Shown one piece after another: positions 2,906 to 55,420 of a stretch of 64,000 bases of DNA. The stretch covers positions 1-64,000 of the forward strand of contig JAJZUL010000003.1 in the NCBI GenBank assembly GCA_021848545.1, in the 5' to 3' direction. This DNA comes from Pseudomonadota bacterium. GTDB taxonomy: Bacteria > Pseudomonadota > Alphaproteobacteria > Rhodospirillales > Magnetospirillaceae. Numbering within the stretch: position 1 is the first letter of the stretch; every line of letters starts with the position of its first letter. Below the pieces are notes generated by a model. That model made no database searches and was not told the DNA's origin. It was given only the letters and a program-made list of their open reading frames with translations. The translations under genes and the position numbers were made by a program.

Positions 2906-3005
2906 GGGCCGAACGATGCGGACGGAATCATGGCAGAATAATCCGCCGGCGGATCAACGCAAGGCCATGGACGCATCCGGCCAGGGTCATCGGGTGAAGG
3001 CGCGT

Positions 3006-3104
3006 TGGAGCGGAGCGACTAGGCCGTTGAGGCCGCCGCAGCGTAAGCGAGGATAGCCCAGGGCGCGGACGCGCCCGCCCGGCGATTGAGGGAAATATAC
3101 ATAA
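3006..3104 (+). repeat. Dispersed repeat family A, copy 1 (internally deleted)
   Basis: This copy starts at TGGAGCGGAGCGACTAGGCC and ends at GGGAAATATACATAA. It matches the 130-bp copies at 3135 and 18451 but lacks 31 bp in the middle, the hairpin segment after CCGCAGCG. The element contains nested inverted repeats (GGCC-GTTGA-GGCC and GGGCGCGGACGCGCCC). It is followed by 32 bp shared with copy 2, up to about 3136. The whole 2906-3482 interval has no convincing gene, and small open frames in it are products of the repeat. Confidence 0.8.
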
Positions 3105-3134
3105 TGCAGGGGAAGCGGGTTCACCCGATTCCCC

Positions 3135-3264
3135 TGGAGCGGAGCGACTAGGCCGTTGAGGCCGCCGCAGCGTGCGGAGAGGCTCCATCGGGGCCTCGGA
3201 GCGCAAGCGAGGATAGCCCAGGGCGCGGACGCGCCCGCCCGGCGATTGAGGGAAATATACATAA
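3135..3264 (+). repeat. Dispersed repeat family A, copy 2 (full length)
   Basis: A 130-bp unit nearly identical in length and sequence to the copy at 18451-18580, arranged as a head-to-tail pair with copy 1. It carries three hairpin modules: GGCC/GGCC, a central palindrome around CTCCATCGGGGCC, and GGGCGCGGACGCGCCC. It then ends in an AT-rich tail. A 20-bp direct repeat (GGCCATGGACGCATCCGGCC) brackets the pair at 2963-2982 and 3296-3315. The remaining DNA up to 3482 shows only a weak hairpin near 3370-3392. Confidence 0.8.
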
Positions 3265-3482
3265 TGCAGGGGAAGCGGGTTCACCCGATTCCCCTGGCCA
3301 TGGACGCATCCGGCCCCGAGAGTTTGTGAAAGAATGCCCATCCGGCGTGAAATCGACGGAAAAACGCCAATGTTTCCAATGGGCGTTCTTTTGCAAGTTC
3401 GATTGATTTACAAGCTCTGACGCTTGGACCATTCATCGGCTGGTGGTACACCCTGAAGGATGATGAGCGGAAGAGGCTCGCG

Positions 3483-18258: not shown

Positions 18259-18450
18259 CGAGTACCATCTCCTTTGAAAACGAGAGCGGCGCGCTCAAAA
18301 CCCGAGGCGCCCGGCTTCGGACGATAGCATTGTTCCGGCCATCGTCCACCATCAGCCCGGATTCCCAACACGCGCCGGAACCGTGAATAGATCGGGTCAA
18401 ATTCTCTTCTAAATCAATAGATCACTGGGCGATTCGCAGGGCAGGCGACT

Positions 18451-18580
18451 TGGAGCGGAGCGACTAGGCCGTTGAGGCCGCCGCAGCGTGCGGAGAGGCC
18501 CCACCGGGGCCTCGGAGCGTAAGCGAGGATAGCCAAGGGCGCGGACGCGCCCGCCCGGCGATTGAGGGAAAGATACATAA
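18451..18580 (+). repeat. Dispersed repeat family A, copy 3 (full length)
   Basis: A 130-bp copy of the element at 3135-3264, with the same orientation relative to the window and the same ends (TGGAGCGGAGCGACTAGGCC to GGGAAAGATACATAA). The central palindrome is perfect here (GGCCCCACCGGGGCC), while copy 2 has changes on one arm, which hints at selection for base pairing or recent origin. It fills much of the 356-nt gap between two leftward genes. The rest (18259-18450) holds the PfkB gene promoter region and the AT-rich motif TCTAAATCAATAGAT near 18408, and no gene. Confidence 0.8.
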
Positions 18581-18614
18581 CCCAGGGCATTGAGCGGACG
18601 CCATCCGGCGTCGG

Positions 18615-28887: not shown

Positions 28888-29005
28888 TTCACCCTCTGCC
28901 CGCCGTCGATCGAACCATCCGCAGGTACCATAAAACGGGGATGGTTCGGAAATATGGCGGAATCAGGACATTGCCCCGATCGAGGGTGATCGGGCGAAGG
29001 CGACT

Positions 29006-29067
29006 TGGAGCGGAGCGACCAGGCCGTTGAGGCCGCCGCAGCGTGCGGAGAGGCCCCAATGGGGCCT
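29006..29067 (+). repeat. Dispersed repeat family A, copy 4 (left half only)
   Basis: The first 62 bp of the family A unit, starting TGGAGCGGAGCGACCAGGCC and ending in the central palindrome GGCCCCAATGGGGCC; the GC-rich third hairpin and the AT tail are absent. About 20 bp before it also match the DNA before copy 1 (GGGYGAAGGCG...TTGG). It lies 37 bp upstream of tRNA-Leu. Confidence 0.75.
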
Positions 29068-29565: not shown

Positions 29566-30786
29566 ATGGGAAAAAGAAAATCGGCCAATCCTGAAATCAT
29601 CGAAAGCGTGGACCGCATCGAACCGGCGCGCCTCGAAGAGATCCCCGAAGCCCTTTCCGACGTGGTCGCCGAGCTGGCCGCCGCGTCGGCCACGCTCGGC
29701 CGCGCCCTTCATCCCCGCACGGCGGCCAATCTCGCCGATCTGGTGCGGATCATGAACAGCTACTACAGCAACCTCATCGAGGGGCACAACACGCGACCGA
29801 AGGACATCGAACGCGCGCTCTTTGGACAATTCGACTCCGACAGCGAGCGGCGTAATCTCCAGGTCGAGGCGGCCGCCCATGTCCGTCTGCAGGCCGAGAT
29901 CGATCGCAAAGCCATAGAGGGTGGCCTGCCGGAACCGGCATCCGCCGGCTTCATCCTCTGGCTCCACCGGGAATTCTACCGCGACGCCGCGCCGGAAATG
30001 CTGGCGATACGCGGCGCCGGCCGCGCGCTCACGATGGTGCCGGGCGAATGGCGTTCCAGACCGGATCACGATGTGGCCGTAGGGCGACATTTGCCGCCGT
30101 CGAGCGACAGGGTCGCGGCCTTCATGGACCACTTCGCCACCCGTTATCGTTTCGAGCCTCTTGGAAAGGCCGCCCGTATTCTCGCCATTCCAGCCGCCCA
30201 CCGCCGCCTCAGCTATATCCACCCCTTTCCCGACGGGAATGGACGGGTGGCGCGCCTGATGAGCCATGCCATGGCGCACATGGCCGGCATCGGCGCCCAT
30301 GGCCTATGGTCGATTTCACGCGGGCTGGCGCGCGGCCTGGAGAGCCGTGGTGACTATAAGCGGATGATGGATCATGCCGACACGCCGCGCCAAGGCGATC
30401 TGGACGGTCGCGGCAATCTGTCGCAACGCGCGCTGATCGACTTCATGCTGTGGTTCCTGCGCACCTGTCTCGACCAGGTCACCTTCATGACAGGCCTGTT
30501 CGAACTCGACACCCTCGCGCGACGGCTTCGCACTTACGTCGAACGCAGCGAGACCCTGAAACCCGAAGCGGCCCGGCTTCTGGAAGACGCCCTGATCCGG
30601 GGAGAATTGGAACGGGGCGACGTGCCACGCATCACCGGCTTGCCGGAGCGAACCGCGCGACGCGTATTCAACGACGTCATCGCCGCCGGTCTTCTGGCCT
30701 CGGACACCCCGAAGGGACGGGTATCGCTCCGCTTTCCCGTGGAAACACTCGACATCCTGTTCCCACGGTTGTTTCCGGAATCCTGA
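29566..30786 (+). CDS. Fic domain protein with N-terminal inhibitory motif
   Basis: A 406-residue protein of the Fic family, whose members transfer AMP or other nucleotide moieties to target proteins. The catalytic motif HPFPDGNGR begins with His219 and is complete. An inhibitory motif of the [S/T]xxxE[G/N] type is present upstream as SNLIEG (Ser68-Glu72), placing the protein in the class whose own N-terminal helix blocks the active site. The C-terminal 100 residues resemble a winged-helix region ([19 protein letters not shown]), as in stand-alone Fic proteins. The ATG has no clear ribosome-binding site and follows an AT-rich segment (TTTATCTTTTAATATCACTG), so leaderless translation is possible. 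No antitoxin gene adjoins it. Confidence 0.9.
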
Positions 30787-30800
30787 CCCGGATGCGCTCA

Positions 30801-30942
30801 GAGCCTGACCCGAAAGTCGGCAGGGTGTGCCGAAAATGGCGGTTTTCGAGAACCGCAGCGGAGCGTACTCCATGTACATGAGCAGCGGAAGCGCAGAAAA
30901 CCGCCATTTGCAGGCCGCCATGGTGACTTTCGGGTCAGGCTC
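30801..30942 (+). mobile_element. 142-bp palindromic MITE-like element, copy 1
   Basis: Terminal inverted repeats GAGCCTGACCCGAAAGTC and GACTTTCGGGTCAGGCTC bound a 142-bp unit that is one long imperfect hairpin. Inner arms AAAATGGCGGTTTTC and GAAAACCGCCATTT pair as well, and the centre is TGTACATGAG-like. A second copy of exactly the same length lies inverted at 54506-54647. It codes for no transposase. No clear target-site duplication is visible. It starts 14 nt after the Fic stop codon. Confidence 0.8.
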
Positions 30943-30972
30943 CAGAGCGGGCGGCCCGCTCTATCGCCCCTC

Positions 30973-31377
30973 TCACTCCACCCCGTGATCCAGCAAATGG
31001 GCGACGTAATCGAAATCCATTTCGGTGACGTGATCCACGAACCAGCGTTTGAACTGGCGCATCATCGCCGGGTCCAGGGTCCGGATGACGCCGCCCAGCA
31101 GCCGGTGACGGGCATTGTAGAATTCGGTGATGATGAGATCGTGTTCCACTTCGTGCCTGGACAGACCGGAGAAGGCGGTGGCGCGCATCACATCCTCCTC
31201 ATGACGGAAATGATCCTGCGTCATCGCCAGTAAACGCCCAAGGCTTGCGGCCACGTCCGCCGCGACGCCGTCCGCCAGCGCCTCGACCAGATCGTTATGG
31301 GCCGCGATCAGATTTCGATGCTCCGCATCCATGCTGGCGATGCCGGTGGCCATGTTCGGTGTCCAGGTCAGCCTCAT
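30973..31377 (-). CDS. Bacteriohemerythrin
   Basis: A 134-residue oxygen-binding di-iron four-helix bundle protein. The full ligand set is visible: MDAEHRNL (first His), HFRHEEDVM (His and Glu), SRHEVEHD (His), and the C-terminal HVTEMDFDYVAHLLDH (His and Asp). Single-domain bacterial hemerythrins bind oxygen and serve in sensing, storage or delivery. The gene stands alone, convergent with the Fic gene across the 142-bp element. A broken paralogue lies at about 34716-35018. Confidence 0.93.
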   Translation of the reverse strand: MRLTWTPNMATGIASMDAEHRNLIAAHNDLVEALADGVAADVAASLGRLLAMTQDHFRHEEDVMRATAFSGLSRHEVEHDLIITEFYNARHRLLGGVIRTLDPAMMRQFKRWFVDHVTEMDFDYVAHLLDHGVE

Positions 31378-34550: not shown

Positions 34551-34715
34551 GCGCTTCTCCGCCGCGATCGCCCGCCAGCCGATGTCGCGGCGGCAGAATC
34601 CCTCCGGCCAGTCGAGACGATCGATGGCCGCATAGGCGCGGTCGCGGGCCTCGCGCACCGTCGCCCCGCTGGCCGTCACCCCCAGCACCCGGCCGCCGGC
34701 GGCCAGGACCGCCCC
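34551..34715 (-). pseudogene. Duplicated 3' end of purD
   Basis: Bases 34556-34715 match 36022-36181 in the 3' end of the intact purD with one visible mismatch in 160 (C/G in the GGCCASTCGAGAC stretch). It encodes the PurD C-terminus ([20 protein letters not shown] onward) with a different last few codons. The fragment has no start and stops being similar abruptly at 34715, where hemerythrin-like sequence begins. The near identity implies a recent duplication. Confidence 0.85.
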
Positions 34716-35018
34716 ACCCCGTGATCCTGGAAATGGGCGACGTAATCGAAATCCATTTTGATGAGGTGGCCCGGAAACCGGCGTCAAAACCGGCCCCGCT
34801 ATTGGAGGGCCAAGGTCCGAACGACACCGCTCAGCAGCCGATGGCGGGTGTTGTGAAACTCGGTGAGGATCAGATCGTGTCCCGCTTCACGCCAGGACCA
34901 GACCGGGGAAACCGGTACGGCGCATCGAATCTTCCTCGTGGAGGAAATGCGCAGGCGTCATCGCCGGTAAATATTCAAGGGATTCGGCCATCTCGGCGGT
35001 GGCGTCATCCATCAACGC
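34716..35018 (-). pseudogene. Broken hemerythrin paralogue
   Basis: Translated leftwards in pieces this gives AMTPAHFLHEEDSMRRTGF, GHDLILTEFHNTRHRLLSG and IKMDFDYVAHFQDHGV. Each matches the intact hemerythrin at 30973-31377 in order, and the HFxHEE, HNxRH and DxxxH positions are recognisable. In-frame stops and shifts separate the pieces, and the N-terminal quarter is missing. The 3' end at about 34716 abuts the duplicated purD fragment, so this stretch is a mosaic of two gene ends. Confidence 0.75.
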
Positions 35019-36013: not shown

Positions 36014-37297
36014 TCACGCCGTCTCCGCCGCGATCGCCCGCCAGCCGATGTCGCGGCGGCAGAATCCCTCCGGCCACTCGAGACGATCGATGGCCGCATA
36101 GGCGCGGTCGCGGGCCTCGCGCACCGTCGCCCCGCTGGCCGTCACCCCCAGCACCCGGCCGCCGGCGGCCAGGACCGCCCCGCCGGGACCGGACGTGGTG
36201 CCGGCATGAAACACCGTGACCCCATCCACCGCGCCGGCCCGGCCCAGCCCGCCGATCACCGAGCCCTTGGCATAGGCGCCGGGATAGCCGTTGGCCGCCA
36301 TCACCACCACCATCGCCGCCTGATCCGACCAGGCGGGGGTGATGCCATCCAGTTTGCCGGCGGCGGCCGCCGCCAGGATCGGCAGCAGGTCCGAGGACAG
36401 GCGCGCCATCAGCACCTGGCATTCGGGATCGCCGAAACGGACGTTGAATTCCAGCAGCTTCGGCCCATCGGCGGTGACCATCACGCCGGCGAACAGCACG
36501 CCGGTATAGGGCATGCCGCGCCCGGCCATGGCCGCCACCGCCGGCGCCATGATCCGGTCCATGATTTCGGCTTCCAGCGCGGGCGTGGCCACCGGCGCCG
36601 GGGAATAGGCACCCATGCCGCCGGTATTGGGGCCGGTATCGCCGTCGCCGACCCGTTTGTGATCCTGGGCCGCGCCGAAATAGACGGCGGTGCGTCCGTC
36701 GCACAGGGCGAACAGCGAAACCTCCTCGCCCTCCAGATATTCCTCGATCACCACCTCGTCGCCGGCGGAGCCGAACGCCTTGTCGGCCATCATCGCATCG
36801 ACGGCGGCCAGGGCCTCCTCGACATTCATGGCCACCGTCACGCCCTTGCCGGCCGCCAGACCGTCGGTCTTGACCACGATCGGCGCGCCCTTTTCGCGGA
36901 TGAAGGCGCGGGCGGCGTCGGCGTCGGTGAAACGCTTGTACCAGGCGGTGGGAATACCGGCCGCGGCGACCACGTCCTTCATGAAGCCCTTGGACCCTTC
37001 CAGGGCGGCGGCGGCCCGGGTGGGGCCGAACACCTTGATCCCGGCTTCGATGCAGGCATCGGCCAGCCCCAGCACCAGCGGCGCCTCCGGCCCGGCCACC
37101 ACCAGATCGACCCCCTGGGCCTTGGCGAAGGCGACCAGGGCCGGCACGTCCTCGGCCCCGATGGCGACGCATTCGGCGACGTCCGTTATGCCGGCATTGC
37201 CCGGCGCGCACCATAATTTGGTCAGGATCGGCGATTGCGCCAGTTTCCAGCACAAAGCATGTTCGCGACCGCCGCCGCCGACCACCAGAACCTTCAT
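36014..37297 (-). CDS. purD: Phosphoribosylamine-glycine ligase
   Basis: The 427-residue ATP-grasp enzyme joins glycine to 5-phosphoribosylamine in the second step of purine synthesis. The N-terminus [19 protein letters not shown] is typical, followed by [12 protein letters not shown] and [27 protein letters not shown] is the ATP-grasp metal-binding region, and the C-terminal domain reads [20 protein letters not shown]. The start is the ATG at 37297 with AAGGAG upstream, not the ATG six codons earlier. It is divergent from xseA; the gap carries a tandem repeat array. The last 160 bp are duplicated at 34556-34715. Confidence 0.96.
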
Positions 37298-37390
37298 GGC
37301 GCGCTCCTTTTTCAATCCGCCGCCGCTTTTACCACGGTCCAGAGCAATCGGGGGAAACCCGATTGATGGTTTGTTGGTTGGGGCTCTGTT

Positions 37391-37700
37391 GGTTGGACCT
37401 CAAGCGCCGGCGCTCGCGCTTGGCTTATCCTCACTCGGCTCGCGCTCGCTCCGGCGCGCTGGTCTTGGTGCTCCGCTCCGCTTCGGGGCGCATAGTCGGC
37501 CGCTTAGTTTTTTGGTTGGCCTCAAGCGCCGGCGCTCGCGCTTGGCTTATCCTCACTCGGCTCGCGCTCGCTCCGGCGCGCTCAACGCGCATAGTCGTCG
37601 CTTAGTTTTTTGGTTGGCCTCAAGCGCCGGCGCTCGCGCTTGGCTTATCCTCACTCGGCTCGCGCTCGCTCCGGCGCGCTCAACGCGCATAGTCGTCGCT
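37391..37700 (+). repeat. Three tandem copies of a ~98-bp GC-rich repeat
   Basis: The unit begins GGTTGGCCTCAAGCGCCGGC. Units start at 37391 (123 bp, with a 25-bp insertion after GCGCTGGT), 37514 (98 bp) and 37612 (about 90 bp). Copies 2 and 3 are almost identical. The repeat contains internal inverted repeats such as CAAGCG/CGCTTG. It fills most of the 486-nt gap between divergent purD and xseA. Small open frames across it are only repeat translations. Confidence 0.9.
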
Positions 37701-42492: not shown

Positions 42493-43386
42493 GCTGCGGA
42501 TTGCAGCCGCCCCTCGATTTGCTACAGTGCATCAGATCAGACGCCGGGAGGGGACACCGCTGCGGATTGCGGCCGCCCCTCGATTTGCTACAGTAAAAAA
42601 CATAGGGACACTGAATACATTCACGCTGCGGATTGCGGCCGCCCCTCGATTTGCTACAGTGACAATCCGCGATGGGTCGGATATGTCCGGGCTGCGGATT
42701 GCGGCCGCCCCTCGATTTGCTACAGTCCGGAGCTTGAGAAGGCCGTACACTCGCTTGCTGCGGATTGCGGCCGCCCCTCGATTTGCTACAGTCGATCAGC
42801 CGCCAAGCTCAGCGGCAATGCTGCTGCGGATTGCGGCCGCCCCTCGATTTGCTACAGTCGCACCGGCATCCCTCCGGCAGGCCGTAGTGCTGCGGATTGC
42901 GGCCGCCCCTCGATTTGCTACAGTTGATCGCGTGCGTGTCACCACCGACGCGGAGCTGCGGATTGCGGCCGCCCCTCGATTTGCTACAGTCAGTCCCGTG
43001 GCCGCATCGACTAGTGTCGCGCTGCGGATTGCGGCCGCCCCTCGATTTGCTACAGTTAGACCCACGAACGCGGTTAAGCGTCCCCTGCTGCGGATTGCGG
43101 CCGCCCCTCGATTTGCTACAGTCGATCTGACCAGCGAATGTCCCGGCATCCAGCTGCGGATTGCGGCCGCCCCTCGATTTGCTACAGTACCGGCCAGCAA
43201 TATTATGTTCTTGCATGAGCTGCGGATTGCGGCCGCCCCTCGATTTGCTACAGTCTTCGCCACCGTCGAACACAGTCTTGCCCAGCTGCGGATTGCGGCC
43301 GCCCCTCGATTTGCTACAGTGGCGATGTTTCTGGCCCACCGTCTTTTGCCGCTGCGGATTGCGGCCGCCCCTCGATTTGCTACAGT
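42493..43386 (+). CRISPR. Type II-C CRISPR array, 14 repeats and 13 spacers
   Basis: Repeats of 36 bp (GCTGCGGATTGCGGCCGC then CCCTCGATTTGCTACAGT) recur with a strict 66-bp period; every spacer is 30 bp. Thirteen repeats are identical. The first, at 42493, has A for G at position 13, which also removes the NotI site seen in all the others. The last repeat starts at 43351. The tracrRNA anti-repeat shows that crRNAs are read rightwards on the + strand. Each repeat ends in TGCTACAGT, an extended -10-like box, as in Neisseria type II-C repeats that carry their own promoters. No AT-rich leader is seen on either side. By eye, no spacer matches another place in the window. Confidence 0.98.
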
Positions 43387-47851: not shown

Positions 47852-47894
47852 GGCCACCCCTTGCGCGAAAACACAAAAAATGATAGCCATTTAA

Positions 47895-47903
47895 GTGTAG
47901 CAA
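47895..47903 (-). promoter_or_regulatory. Candidate extended -10 of the cas9 promoter, inside the anti-repeat
   Basis: Read leftwards the bases are TGCTACACT, nearly the same box (TGCTACAGT) that ends every CRISPR repeat and that in Neisseria type II-C repeats serves as an extended -10. A start about 7 nt downstream would give a 5' leader of roughly 35 nt before the cas9 ATG. A -35 is not convincing. The position is inside the tracrRNA anti-repeat on the opposite strand. Confidence 0.4.
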
Positions 47904-48010
47904 ATCGAGGGGCGGTCGCTTTTCGCAAGCAAAATTGACCCCTTGCGCGGGCTCGGCGTCCCAAGGTCACTCCGCCGACACCAATCCCCGCCTTCGGGCG
48001 GGGATTTTTG
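47896..48010 (+). ncRNA. tracrRNA
   Basis: The anti-repeat TGTAGCAAATCGAGGGGCGG (47896-47915, continuing to about 47930) complements the CRISPR repeat over its whole length. There is a bulge around GGATT/TTTT and a closing lower stem GCTGCG with CGCAAGC, the duplex form recognised by Cas9. Downstream lies a nexus-like region: CCTTG (47941-45) can pair with CAAGG (47962-66), and TCGGCG (47953-58) with CGCCGA (47973-78). A UUCG-capped terminator ends it. It is transcribed opposite to cas9, and its 5' end is 45 nt from the cas9 start. The exact 5' end and promoter cannot be fixed; the promoter must lie to the left, within the cas9 leader or first codons. Confidence 0.9.
47984..48010 (+). terminator. 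Rho-independent terminator of tracrRNA
   Basis: A perfect 9-bp stem ATCCCCGCC/GGCGGGGAT closed by a UUCG tetraloop and followed by TTTTGTTT. It ends the tracrRNA and insulates it from the leftward groESL transcript, whose own terminator is about 20 nt further on. Confidence 0.93.
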
Positions 48011-54385: not shown

Positions 54386-54505
54386 ACTCGCCGTAACGTC
54401 CCAAACGCACCCGACCGGAACCATACCGGTCAGGGTCCAGGAGGATGATATTGGATTGAGGCGGCAATGCGTCAATCCAATATCCAAAACTGTTTTGTTT
54501 ATTGA

Positions 54506-54647
54506 GAGCCTGACCCGAAAATCGCCAGGGCGGCCTGCAAATGGCGGTTTTCTGCGCATCCGCTGCTCACGTACATGACGTACGCTCCGCTGCGGGTCTC
54601 GAAAACCGCCATTTTCGGCTCACCCTGCCGATTTTCGGGTCGGGCTC
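54506..54647 (-). mobile_element. 142-bp palindromic MITE-like element, copy 2
   Basis: It has the same 142-bp length and ends (GAGCCTGACCCGAAAATC, GATTTTCGGGTCGGGCTC) as the element at 30801-30942 but is inverted. Inner arms AAATGGCGGTTTTC and GAAAACCGCCATTTT pair, and the centre is CACGTACATGACGTACGC. It overlaps the last nine codons and the stop of the bufC-like gene, so insertion appears to have replaced the original end of that gene. Confidence 0.8.
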
Positions 54648-55420
54648 TGAGGGGAGCCGCCCTCGGCCCCGGCGAGACGACCGGCGACGAGATACCCGGC
54701 CAGAAGAGAGGGACCGGCGTCGCCCGCCGCCTCCAGCAGATCGCCAAGGGTGGCGCCGCCGCTCAAGCCGGCGCCGAATCGCCAGGCGGCATCGTCCAGA
54801 CGTTCCACCACCGGCAGACCGTCCACGCGATCGACCAGCACCCGTACCGGCCCCTGATCGGGATCGATTGCGGCCAGCCCCTCGTCATCCTCGTCCAGAA
54901 CCCGCCGCCAGATAAGATCGGCGGAATGGGCGACCTCGACCATCCTGACCGAGGGAATCAGGGTCAGCCGCAGATGTTCCGCGTCCGCCTCGGCGAGGGC
55001 GGCCAAGTCGTCGGCGGACAGGGGTGTGGCATCCTCGGCGTGAAGCGCCTGGGCGATGGCCCATTCGAGACGGGCGACATGGGCGAGATAGGGCACGGAC
55101 GCCGCCGGTCCGAACTCGGCCAGAAAGCCGGGAAAGCCGCCGCCGTAATCGTCGAGATTGCCGGTCCGGGGCGGGTCCGAGGCGATATAGAGATGGGCGG
55201 CGGCGTCGAAGAACGCCTCGCCCACCAGCCGGCGCACCACCGGGAAGCTTTGCGCCAGGGCCACCGCCACGCCGATCAGAAAACCGCTGCGATAGACCGA
55301 CAGACCTTCGGCCGCCATGTCGCCCTCGGTCAAATCGAGAAGGCCGGTGTCGCCCTCGACCAGGGCCCGGCTCATGGCGCGCTGCACGTCGCGCAAAGAA
55401 GAAGGCGCGTCAGGCGACAT
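54620..55420 (-). CDS. bufC: DUF2063 protein, partner of a DUF692 RiPP enzyme (BufC/HvfC-like)
   Basis: A 266-residue protein of the DUF2063 family. The N-terminal helical domain has the conserved GLSVYRSGFLIGVAVALAQ and FPVVRRLVGEAFF, followed by YIASDPPRTGNLDDYG and FLAEFGP. Such proteins bind the peptide precursor and present it to the DUF692 enzyme, whose gene overlaps this one by 11 nt upstream. The last residues (PQSPTRKSAG) are encoded by an inserted palindromic element and are unlikely to be native. The cysteine-rich precursor is the first gene of the operon. No DoxX-type membrane gene (bufD) follows. Confidence 0.85.
   Translation of the reverse strand: MSPDAPSSLRDVQRAMSRALVEGDTGLLDLTEGDMAAEGLSVYRSGFLIGVAVALAQSFPVVRRLVGEAFFDAAAHLYIASDPPRTGNLDDYGGGFPGFLAEFGPAASVPYLAHVARLEWAIAQALHAEDATPLSADDLAALAEADAEHLRLTLIPSVRMVEVAHSADLIWRRVLDEDDEGLAAIDPDQGPVRVLVDRVDGLPVVERLDDAAWRFGAGLSGGATLGDLLEAAGDAGPSLLAGYLVAGRLAGAEGGSPQSPTRKSAG

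Follow-up and report, generated by a model that had tools for sequence, protein, structure and literature searches.

The 142-bp palindromic element found twice in the window (the whole stretch of 64,000 nucleotides analysed here) represents a MITE family of a known kind, and the unusual feature of this family is that its hairpin core is spread more widely than its ends. The best explanation overall, to which we assign a probability of about 0.8, is that of a MITE inserting at TNA and mobilised by an IS1031-type transposase, the hairpin core of which would serve as an element of mRNA 3' untranslated regions. Neither this MITE family, nor a core that is spread more widely than its ends and is seated directionally on stop codons, was found described in the open-access literature searched.

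Two copies of the element in the window

The preliminary description had reported two copies of exactly 142 bp, inverted relative to each other and lying just after or inside the 3' end of a gene, all of which was confirmed at the coordinates listed in Table 1. Aligned to each other in inverted order, the copies agree at 91% over 154 nt, and each forms a palindrome with arms of 47-48 nt (83% and 85% complementary in the two copies) and 48 nt between the arms. The predicted fold of the + strand of copy 1 reaches -89.8 kcal/mol, compared to a mean of -47.6 for shuffled sequences (z -10.8). The target duplication of copy 1 is imperfect, with CAG on the right flank (30943-30945) versus TCA on the left. 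The element has also been said to lack coding capacity, which is correct in that it contains no gene of its own but does not hold for copy 2, since the last eight codons and the stop (54620-54622) of the neighbouring DUF2063 gene consist of copy 2 sequence.

Table 1. Coordinates of the two element copies and the adjoining genes in the window.
Feature	Position	Strand	Remarks
Element copy 1	30801..30942	+	142 bp; core in GCGGAGCGTAC..GTACATGAGC sense on +
Copy 1, left terminal inverted repeat	30801..30815	+	GAGCCTGACCCGAAA, exact
Copy 1, right terminal inverted repeat	30928..30942	-	exact GAGCCTGACCCGAAA in reverse
Copy 1, left target TCA	30798..30800		
Copy 1, apical hairpin motif	30849..30894	+	model R3 (training includes a sequence of copy 1), 56.4 bits
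Element copy 2	54506..54647	-	142 bp; orientation opposite to copy 1
Copy 2, low-coordinate terminal inverted repeat	54506..54520	+	exact GAGCCTGACCCGAAA
Copy 2, high-coordinate terminal inverted repeat	54633..54647	-	GAGCCCGACCCGAAA, one mismatch
Copy 2, target duplication TGA, left	54503..54505		
Copy 2, target duplication TGA, right	54648..54650		
Copy 2, apical hairpin motif	54554..54599	-	model R3, 54 bits
Fic/DOC-family gene	29566..30786	+	PF02661; stop 14 nt before copy 1
Hemerythrin-domain gene	30973..31377	-	PF01814; converges on copy 1, 3' end 30 nt beyond copy 1
DUF2063 gene	54620..55420	-	PF09836; 3' end inside copy 2

When the 15-base end was searched with up to three mismatches in the 64-kb window alone, 4 matches were found versus 2.17 expected, which is not above chance. 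Rfam searches of the window and of 15 related loci at gathering score each returned nothing but a tRNA; under lax settings, the 351 nt surrounding copy 1 gave four weak matches, three of them to plant-type miRNA families (best E 0.16). No match to the element was found in the phage records searched.

The window holds several other repeats. Thirteen 66-nt units stand in tandem at 42493-43386, with one conserved stretch that has an inverted partner at 47890-47927. A second dispersed family (GGAGCGGAGCGACTAGGCCGTTGAGG...) is found at 2975-3271, 18443-18587 and 28998-29067, and also adjoins a truncated element on contig C39. A 98-nt GC-rich repeat occurs three times at 37379-37696, two of the units being identical and adjacent, and a 163-nt repeat occurs at 34556-34718 and 36022-36184 (99% identical, 1466 nt apart).

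A high-copy family in its own genome

The window belongs to a genome of 3.17 Mb in 85 contigs, in which the 142-bp query gave 116 first-look candidates. All 40 of those that were scored were strong matches, and most of these 40 places matched twice, once per strand, owing to the palindrome. The 15-base end alone, allowing up to two mismatches, matched 170 times in the genome compared to 8 times for the reversed control pattern, so that the further copies of the ends for which the preliminary description had suggested a search do exist, in at least 66 elements. This number was obtained from 70 automatic end pairs by removing six (contig-end partials, overlaps and one false pair) and adding two that were re-cut. 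The cleaned set comprises 51 elements of 142 bp, six of 44 bp, four of 58 bp and five of other lengths, among them a 152-bp entry that includes a run of N. The 50 automatically paired 142-bp copies include 47 different sequences. As several contigs start or stop within a copy (e.g. C27, C28 and C69), the true copy number is probably above 66.

The 44-bp form consists of the outer palindrome only, without the core, and all six of its representatives are flanked by an identical TNA duplication. The core is thus not needed for insertion, or at least not for persistence. Both the 44-bp and the 58-bp forms look like products of slippage between short direct repeats at the base of the hairpin. Two loci with unequal TNA flanks, C83:623-764 and C44:75132-75273, have a short flank in common (CAGAGCTTGTA), as if they were adjacent or recombined. 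One 58-bp form (C78:54478-54535, locus L032) lies directly beside a short IS5-type transposase-like stretch (PF13340, below the cut-off).

Target duplication and the candidate transposase

Among the 62 copies with both flanks readable (64 elements plus 5 re-cut ones, minus 7 at contig edges), 46 are flanked by an identical 3-bp TNA duplication. The middle base of these is nearly evenly distributed (TGA 13, TCA 12, TAA 11 and TTA 10). The remaining 16 copies have TNA on both sides with a different middle base (7), on one side (7) or on neither (2), and TNA also precedes each of five unpaired ends that were examined. In the flanks, C is preferred before and G after the TNA.

A preferred TNA target and a 3-bp repeat made on insertion are described for the IS1031 group of the IS5 family (PMC12016507). 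In the own genome, contig C80 carries a 955-bp element encoding an IS5-family transposase of 281 aa, which scores 234 bits with NF033580 (cut-off 110) and is over the cut-off of PF01609 and PF13340 as well. The ends of this IS (GAGCCCGACTCATAA / GAGCCCGCCCCATAA) each differ from the MITE end at 3 of 15 positions, and its flanks, TGA and TCA, form no duplication. It is the only IS-length pair of ends, at up to three mismatches each, in the approximately 285 kb of the own genome examined. The preliminary description had suggested a search for a transposase gene flanked by the ends of the element; the C80 element comes nearest, and a transposase flanked by exactly the MITE ends was not found in the approximately 285 kb examined out of 3.17 Mb.

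Related transposases were detected in 23 of 99 genomes (own included). Across 30 such loci, a script found a TNA-flanked pair of ends in 6 and none in the other 24; the duplication is identical in four of the six, two of which (L268 and L286) are one and the same element. The IS of relatives in nearby genera thus have similar ends next to TNA, and those in genomes G031, G466 and G033 combine ends like GAGTCCGTCCGAAAAGTT with an identical duplication. From these similarities, we infer that the element is very probably mobilised by an IS5-family transposase of the IS1031 type, the exact one not having been found in the approximately 285 kb examined. The transposase of C80, or a closer relative of it, would recognise the 15-bp ends in trans and insert the element at 5'-TNA-3', duplicating these three bases, the element itself being a non-autonomous transposon, i.e. 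a MITE.

REP-type repeats are mobilised by RAYT, a tyrosine transposase acting on single strands, and leave no target duplication. The preliminary description had named a REP-type element beside a MITE, and the palindromic structure, the mostly intergenic position, the high copy number and the lack of a gene of its own would all suit such a repeat. As against this, the element has IS5-type inverted repeats of 15 bp at its termini and is flanked by a 3-bp TNA duplication, and its length of 142 bp is far from the 20-40 bp given in the description of REPs cited (PMC3733652), which makes movement by RAYT extremely improbable. The MITE reading, by comparison, is upheld by the terminal inverted repeats, the TNA duplication, the high copy number and the IS5-family element of C80 with its similar ends.

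Seating on stop codons in the own genome

A TNA target always contains a stop codon, TAA or TGA, which is read directly or, where the target is TTA or TCA, in reverse complement. An insertion on a gene's own stop leaves the protein intact, and this is one reason for the accumulation of copies at such sites. The exact stop of a called gene is abutted by 16 of the 57 copies whose flanks both extend to 500 nt or more (the 66 minus 9 with shorter flanks), and in the window, used as a control, 30 of 427 intergenic TNA sites are such gene stops. With the count restricted to the 41 copies that have both an identical TNA duplication and the same minimum flank, 12 were found exactly on a stop. A set of 1997 intergenic TNA sites with matching neighbouring bases leads to an expectation of 2.98, and none of 20,000 resamples reached 12. 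The genes were called with a simple codon-usage script, applied alike to copies and controls.

With regard to gene context, the genes on either side of the 57 copies are divergent in 20 cases, convergent in 12 and tandem in 18, and for 7 copies a gene call is lacking on at least one side. A role in 3' untranslated regions is impossible for the 20 copies between divergent genes. The suggestion that insertion takes place at 3' ends is thus only partly borne out in this genome, by the approximately fourfold over-representation of exact stop seating, and it does not extend to these 20 copies. More generally, the TNA target provides a simple rule by which a transposon can land at the end of a gene without harm to the protein.

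A core shared by elements with other ends

A core of approximately 75 nt with covarying stems was found to be common to elements with unrelated ends across Alphaproteobacteria. Searching with the 142-bp query by blastn returned 30 plasmid records (from Sphingobium, Shinella, Agrobacterium, Phyllobacterium and others), none of which covered 80% of the query. Eleven of the 30 plasmid loci were examined, and in these the core is present with different ends, e.g. GGATGTGTGGGGATTCAG, GGACCGATCGACATTCA, AAATCCGTGAGGC and CATGTCTCG. A match was also obtained in 5 of 61 genomes (own included). The own type of element is kept in G002, the core lies within elements with ends GAGCCTGACCCATAA or similar in G003, and it is joined to quite different ends in G008 and G019.

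An alignment of 18 cores showed 91.4% of cells to be paired, compared to 78.5% in shuffles and at most 42% when the pairing was slid, and 44 double-sided changes compared to 11.8 in shuffles. On a fifth measure (further pair types), 48 of 500 shuffles came up to the value of the alignment. The letters of the unpaired internal loop are conserved as well. A reading of the GAG/TGA loop as a k-turn was dropped, because the three-base bulge that belongs to the definition of a k-turn is missing.

With strict filters and 12 candidates scored per genome, which makes the count a lower bound, the core model matched at least 29 of 385 genomes of the class (own included), the weakest matches retaining mainly the apical part. 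The exact 23-base pattern GTGCTCACGTAC-N3-6-GTACGCTSCGC, in which one of the fixed bases is S, was found in at least 119 stretches of the GTDB set, where we estimate that well under one chance match would be expected in 257 Gb. According to the record titles, 16 of the 80 motif loci listed are non-alphaproteobacterial (Nitrospirota, Nitrospinota and Bacillota, including two Listeria genomes), several of these being MAGs of which single cases could be misbinned. The ends of these elements differ once more, and many look like complete palindromes. The apical pattern also occurs in 46 stretches of viral contigs (L325-L370).

Two other origins of the shared core can be considered. First, the element could be a composite, with a small mobile hairpin of separate origin (the core) having entered a 44-bp MITE that comprised only the outer palindrome. 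The 44-bp forms do consist of the outer arms alone, with the TNA duplication in six of six, and the core does occur with other ends. Slippage between short direct repeats at the base of the hairpin would however yield the 44-bp and 58-bp forms equally well, no duplication around the core is apparent by eye in the 142-bp consensus, and the cores of several plasmid loci, with their TGCAAATGG / CCATTTTCG shoulders, are similarly nested within other ends. We therefore regard a composite origin as unlikely. Second, unrelated palindromic repeats could have converged on a similar hairpin without common ancestry, as the unrelated look of the ends and outer arms between phyla might suggest. Such convergence would have to produce 23 fixed bases exactly in at least 119 stretches, against an estimate of well under one in 257 Gb, and would have to account for the conserved letters of the unpaired internal loop too (in alignment A3, which retains 25 of 26 rows, 18 of the 25 were chosen by the apical motif). 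We consider it very unlikely.

Stop codons and orientation outside the own genome

The 80 listed loci contain 85 motif matches (two in each of 5 loci), of which 75 have callable ends (150 sides) and 47 passed the filters for end quality, length and flank. In 34 of these 47 foreign elements, a boundary coincides, within -4 to +12 nt, with the stop of an ORF no shorter than 150 codons; this applies to 32 of the 42 elements from Alphaproteobacteria and to 2 of the 5 from elsewhere. Stop triplets at boundaries end an ORF of at least 150 codons in 41 of 84 cases, compared to 39 of 664 at a distance of 25-400 nt (odds ratio 15, p 2e-22), the ORFs having been called mechanically and alike for boundaries and controls. 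Target duplications were tested in the 47 foreign elements and not established. The same pair of bases stands on both sides as TA in 10, CG in 8, AT in 7 and GC in 6 of them, with an identical TNA in 1 and an identical CNG in 5.

Where an ORF abuts the element on a single side, it lies upstream of the GTGCTCACGTAC sense in 23 cases and on the other side in 4 (p 0.0003, among the matches listed), the cases being partly non-independent as some sites are common to related species. The own genome shows a ratio of 9:4, with three further copies giving no call, which is not significant alone; taken together, foreign and own elements give 32:8 (p 0.0002). Such a preference suggests that the transcript, and not the DNA, is what matters.

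One site is occupied in several genera of rhizobia. In Rhizobium WSM1274, Ensifer adhaerens, a Rhizobium MAG and a Mesorhizobium, the element starts at the stop of etfB and separates this gene from etfA (names taken from the annotation of homologous records). Four rhizobial homologues carry no element and have an etfB-etfA spacer of 22-27 nt, and the comparison of occupied and empty sites recommended in the preliminary description was made for this rhizobial etfB site, with four of each. Two of the four occupied etfB copies and all four empty rhizobial copies are plasmid-borne. No core was found within 330 nt of etfB in any of 30 other alphaproteobacterial loci (the best 30, with 280 of 385 genomes positive); etfA starts -1 to +2 nt from the etfB stop in 24 of these, and its start was not recognised by the script in the other 6. 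The four occupancies likely stem from one insertion, the alternative being repeated insertion or gene transfer. In Sinorhizobium (L320 and L321), a different palindrome of approximately 49 bp (GTTCATGCGTCCGG...CGCATGAAC) is located on the same etfB stop codon.

A possible role in mRNA 3' ends

The likeliest role of the core is that of a hairpin in the mRNA 3' untranslated part of the gene that it abuts, where it would affect processing or stability. A role of this kind would account for the bias in orientation and for the occurrence at the etfB stop across several genera, and it is in this sense that we infer a function of the core, to which the data point, in mRNA 3' ends. Precedents exist for repeats acting within transcripts, as Correia hairpins in mRNA are described as being cut by RNase III and ERIC as able to unmask an RNase E site (PMC2229807, PMC10969869). 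For Thalassospira lucentensis, putative microRNAs from both arms of a hairpin have been described at two places on the basis of small-RNA sequencing (PMC6413936). This hairpin carries the apical motif and, in our own reading, would be the same kind of element; the words "repeat" and "copies" do not occur in the cited text of PMC6413936, and a search for the literal strings of the apical motif in open-access papers found no paper on repeat elements, PMC6413936 being the only matching paper that deals with such bacteria. Together, the RNase precedents and the Thalassospira microRNAs make a role of the core at the mRNA level plausible.

It is also conceivable that the element is a purely selfish MITE without any host function, in which the core is kept by descent, the ends are swapped by recombination and stop codons are merely the least harmful TNA or TA sites. 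Neutrality combined with a TNA target could indeed yield stop-codon seating, 20 of the 57 own copies lie between divergent genes, and forms without the core (44 and 58 bp) persist. On the other hand, neither the 23:4 orientation bias nor the conserved internal-loop letters and compensated stems are expected of a neutral passenger, the presence at etfB in several genera fits poorly, and seating on stops exceeds that on other intergenic TNA sites (12 of 41 versus 2.98). We regard this alternative as a serious one, with a chance only somewhat short of even, and retain the hairpin with an mRNA-level role as the preferred reading of the core.

On a wider scale, the elements might form a pan-bacterial superfamily, in which a conserved core is combined with lineage-specific transposase ends and kept as a stop-codon-seated element of mRNA 3' ends, with ERIC as one member. 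We put this forward tentatively, as a conjecture more apt to fail than to hold. If true, each lineage would pair the core with the ends of whatever transposase it has available (IS5/IS1031 in the present genome, other ones in other lineages). Bacterial MITEs tend to be viewed as remnants of an IS that are particular to one lineage, and here it is the inside that is more widely spread than the ends: one hairpin motif with unrelated ends is found in at least four phyla, seated on stops and with one preferred orientation where tested. The purpose of intergenic palindromes thereby becomes directly testable, for example at a site common to several genera such as etfB-etfA.

Comparison with known repeats

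ERIC (also IRU or RU-1) is described as an imperfect palindrome of 127 bp, mostly intergenic, for which the passage cited from a 2007 review gives no matching IS known at that date (PMC2229807). It resembles the present element in being an imperfect palindrome with a mostly intergenic position, and its apical GGAGC-TTAC-N4-GTAA-GTGA has the AGC.TAC / GTA.GTGA loop and stem of the core. The enterobacterial ERIC apex, GGAGCTTAC-ATAA-GTAAGTGA, likewise shows the GAG/TGA internal loop of the core. Model R3, which was trained without ERIC, scored ERIC (GGAGCUUAC..GUAAGUGA) at 13.5 bits (E 0.13), rank 2 of 17 in 49 kb, the top match being a fragment without a hairpin at 13.6 bits. The same-strand alignment score of ERIC beat the reverse in 26 of 26 elements, with p <=0.01 in only 4 of 26; when the motif was masked, p <0.05 was obtained in 2 of 26. 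A similarity along the whole 127 bp was not seen, and it is only the apical hairpin that shows a likeness to the core. Kinship of ERIC with the core family is accordingly a hypothesis for which the likeness of the apex is suggestive only.

Several other repeats share part of this profile by description. QMITE2 of Coxiella burnetii is a 150-190-bp MITE found mainly in 3' untranslated and intergenic regions, from which an sRNA arises and of which relatives are reported in alphaproteobacteria (PMC5896051). It agrees with the element in kind, in location and in having alphaproteobacterial relatives, but is set apart by its 7-11-bp duplications and a GTAG REP inside. CIR, from Caulobacter and Brucella, is likewise an alphaproteobacterial intergenic repeat, of approximately 110 bp, though it is said to consist of a pair of stem-loop arms connected by a linker that exposes GANTC (PMC2229807), whereas the element is a single long palindrome. 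RUP, proposed to be moved by IS630-Spn1 (PMC2229807, PMC10969869), and Correia/NEMIS are also MITEs, differing by description in having TA at their termini.

Finally, the comparison with the IS5/IS1031 group itself shows both sides of the element. Its ends are not identical to those of any IS found in the stretches examined, and the interior, in which an informal comparison noticed no likeness to an IS, is a conserved hairpin core that does not look like a transposase remnant. The TNA target and the 3-bp duplication, on the other hand, are those of the group, an IS5 transposase with similar ends being present in the same genome.
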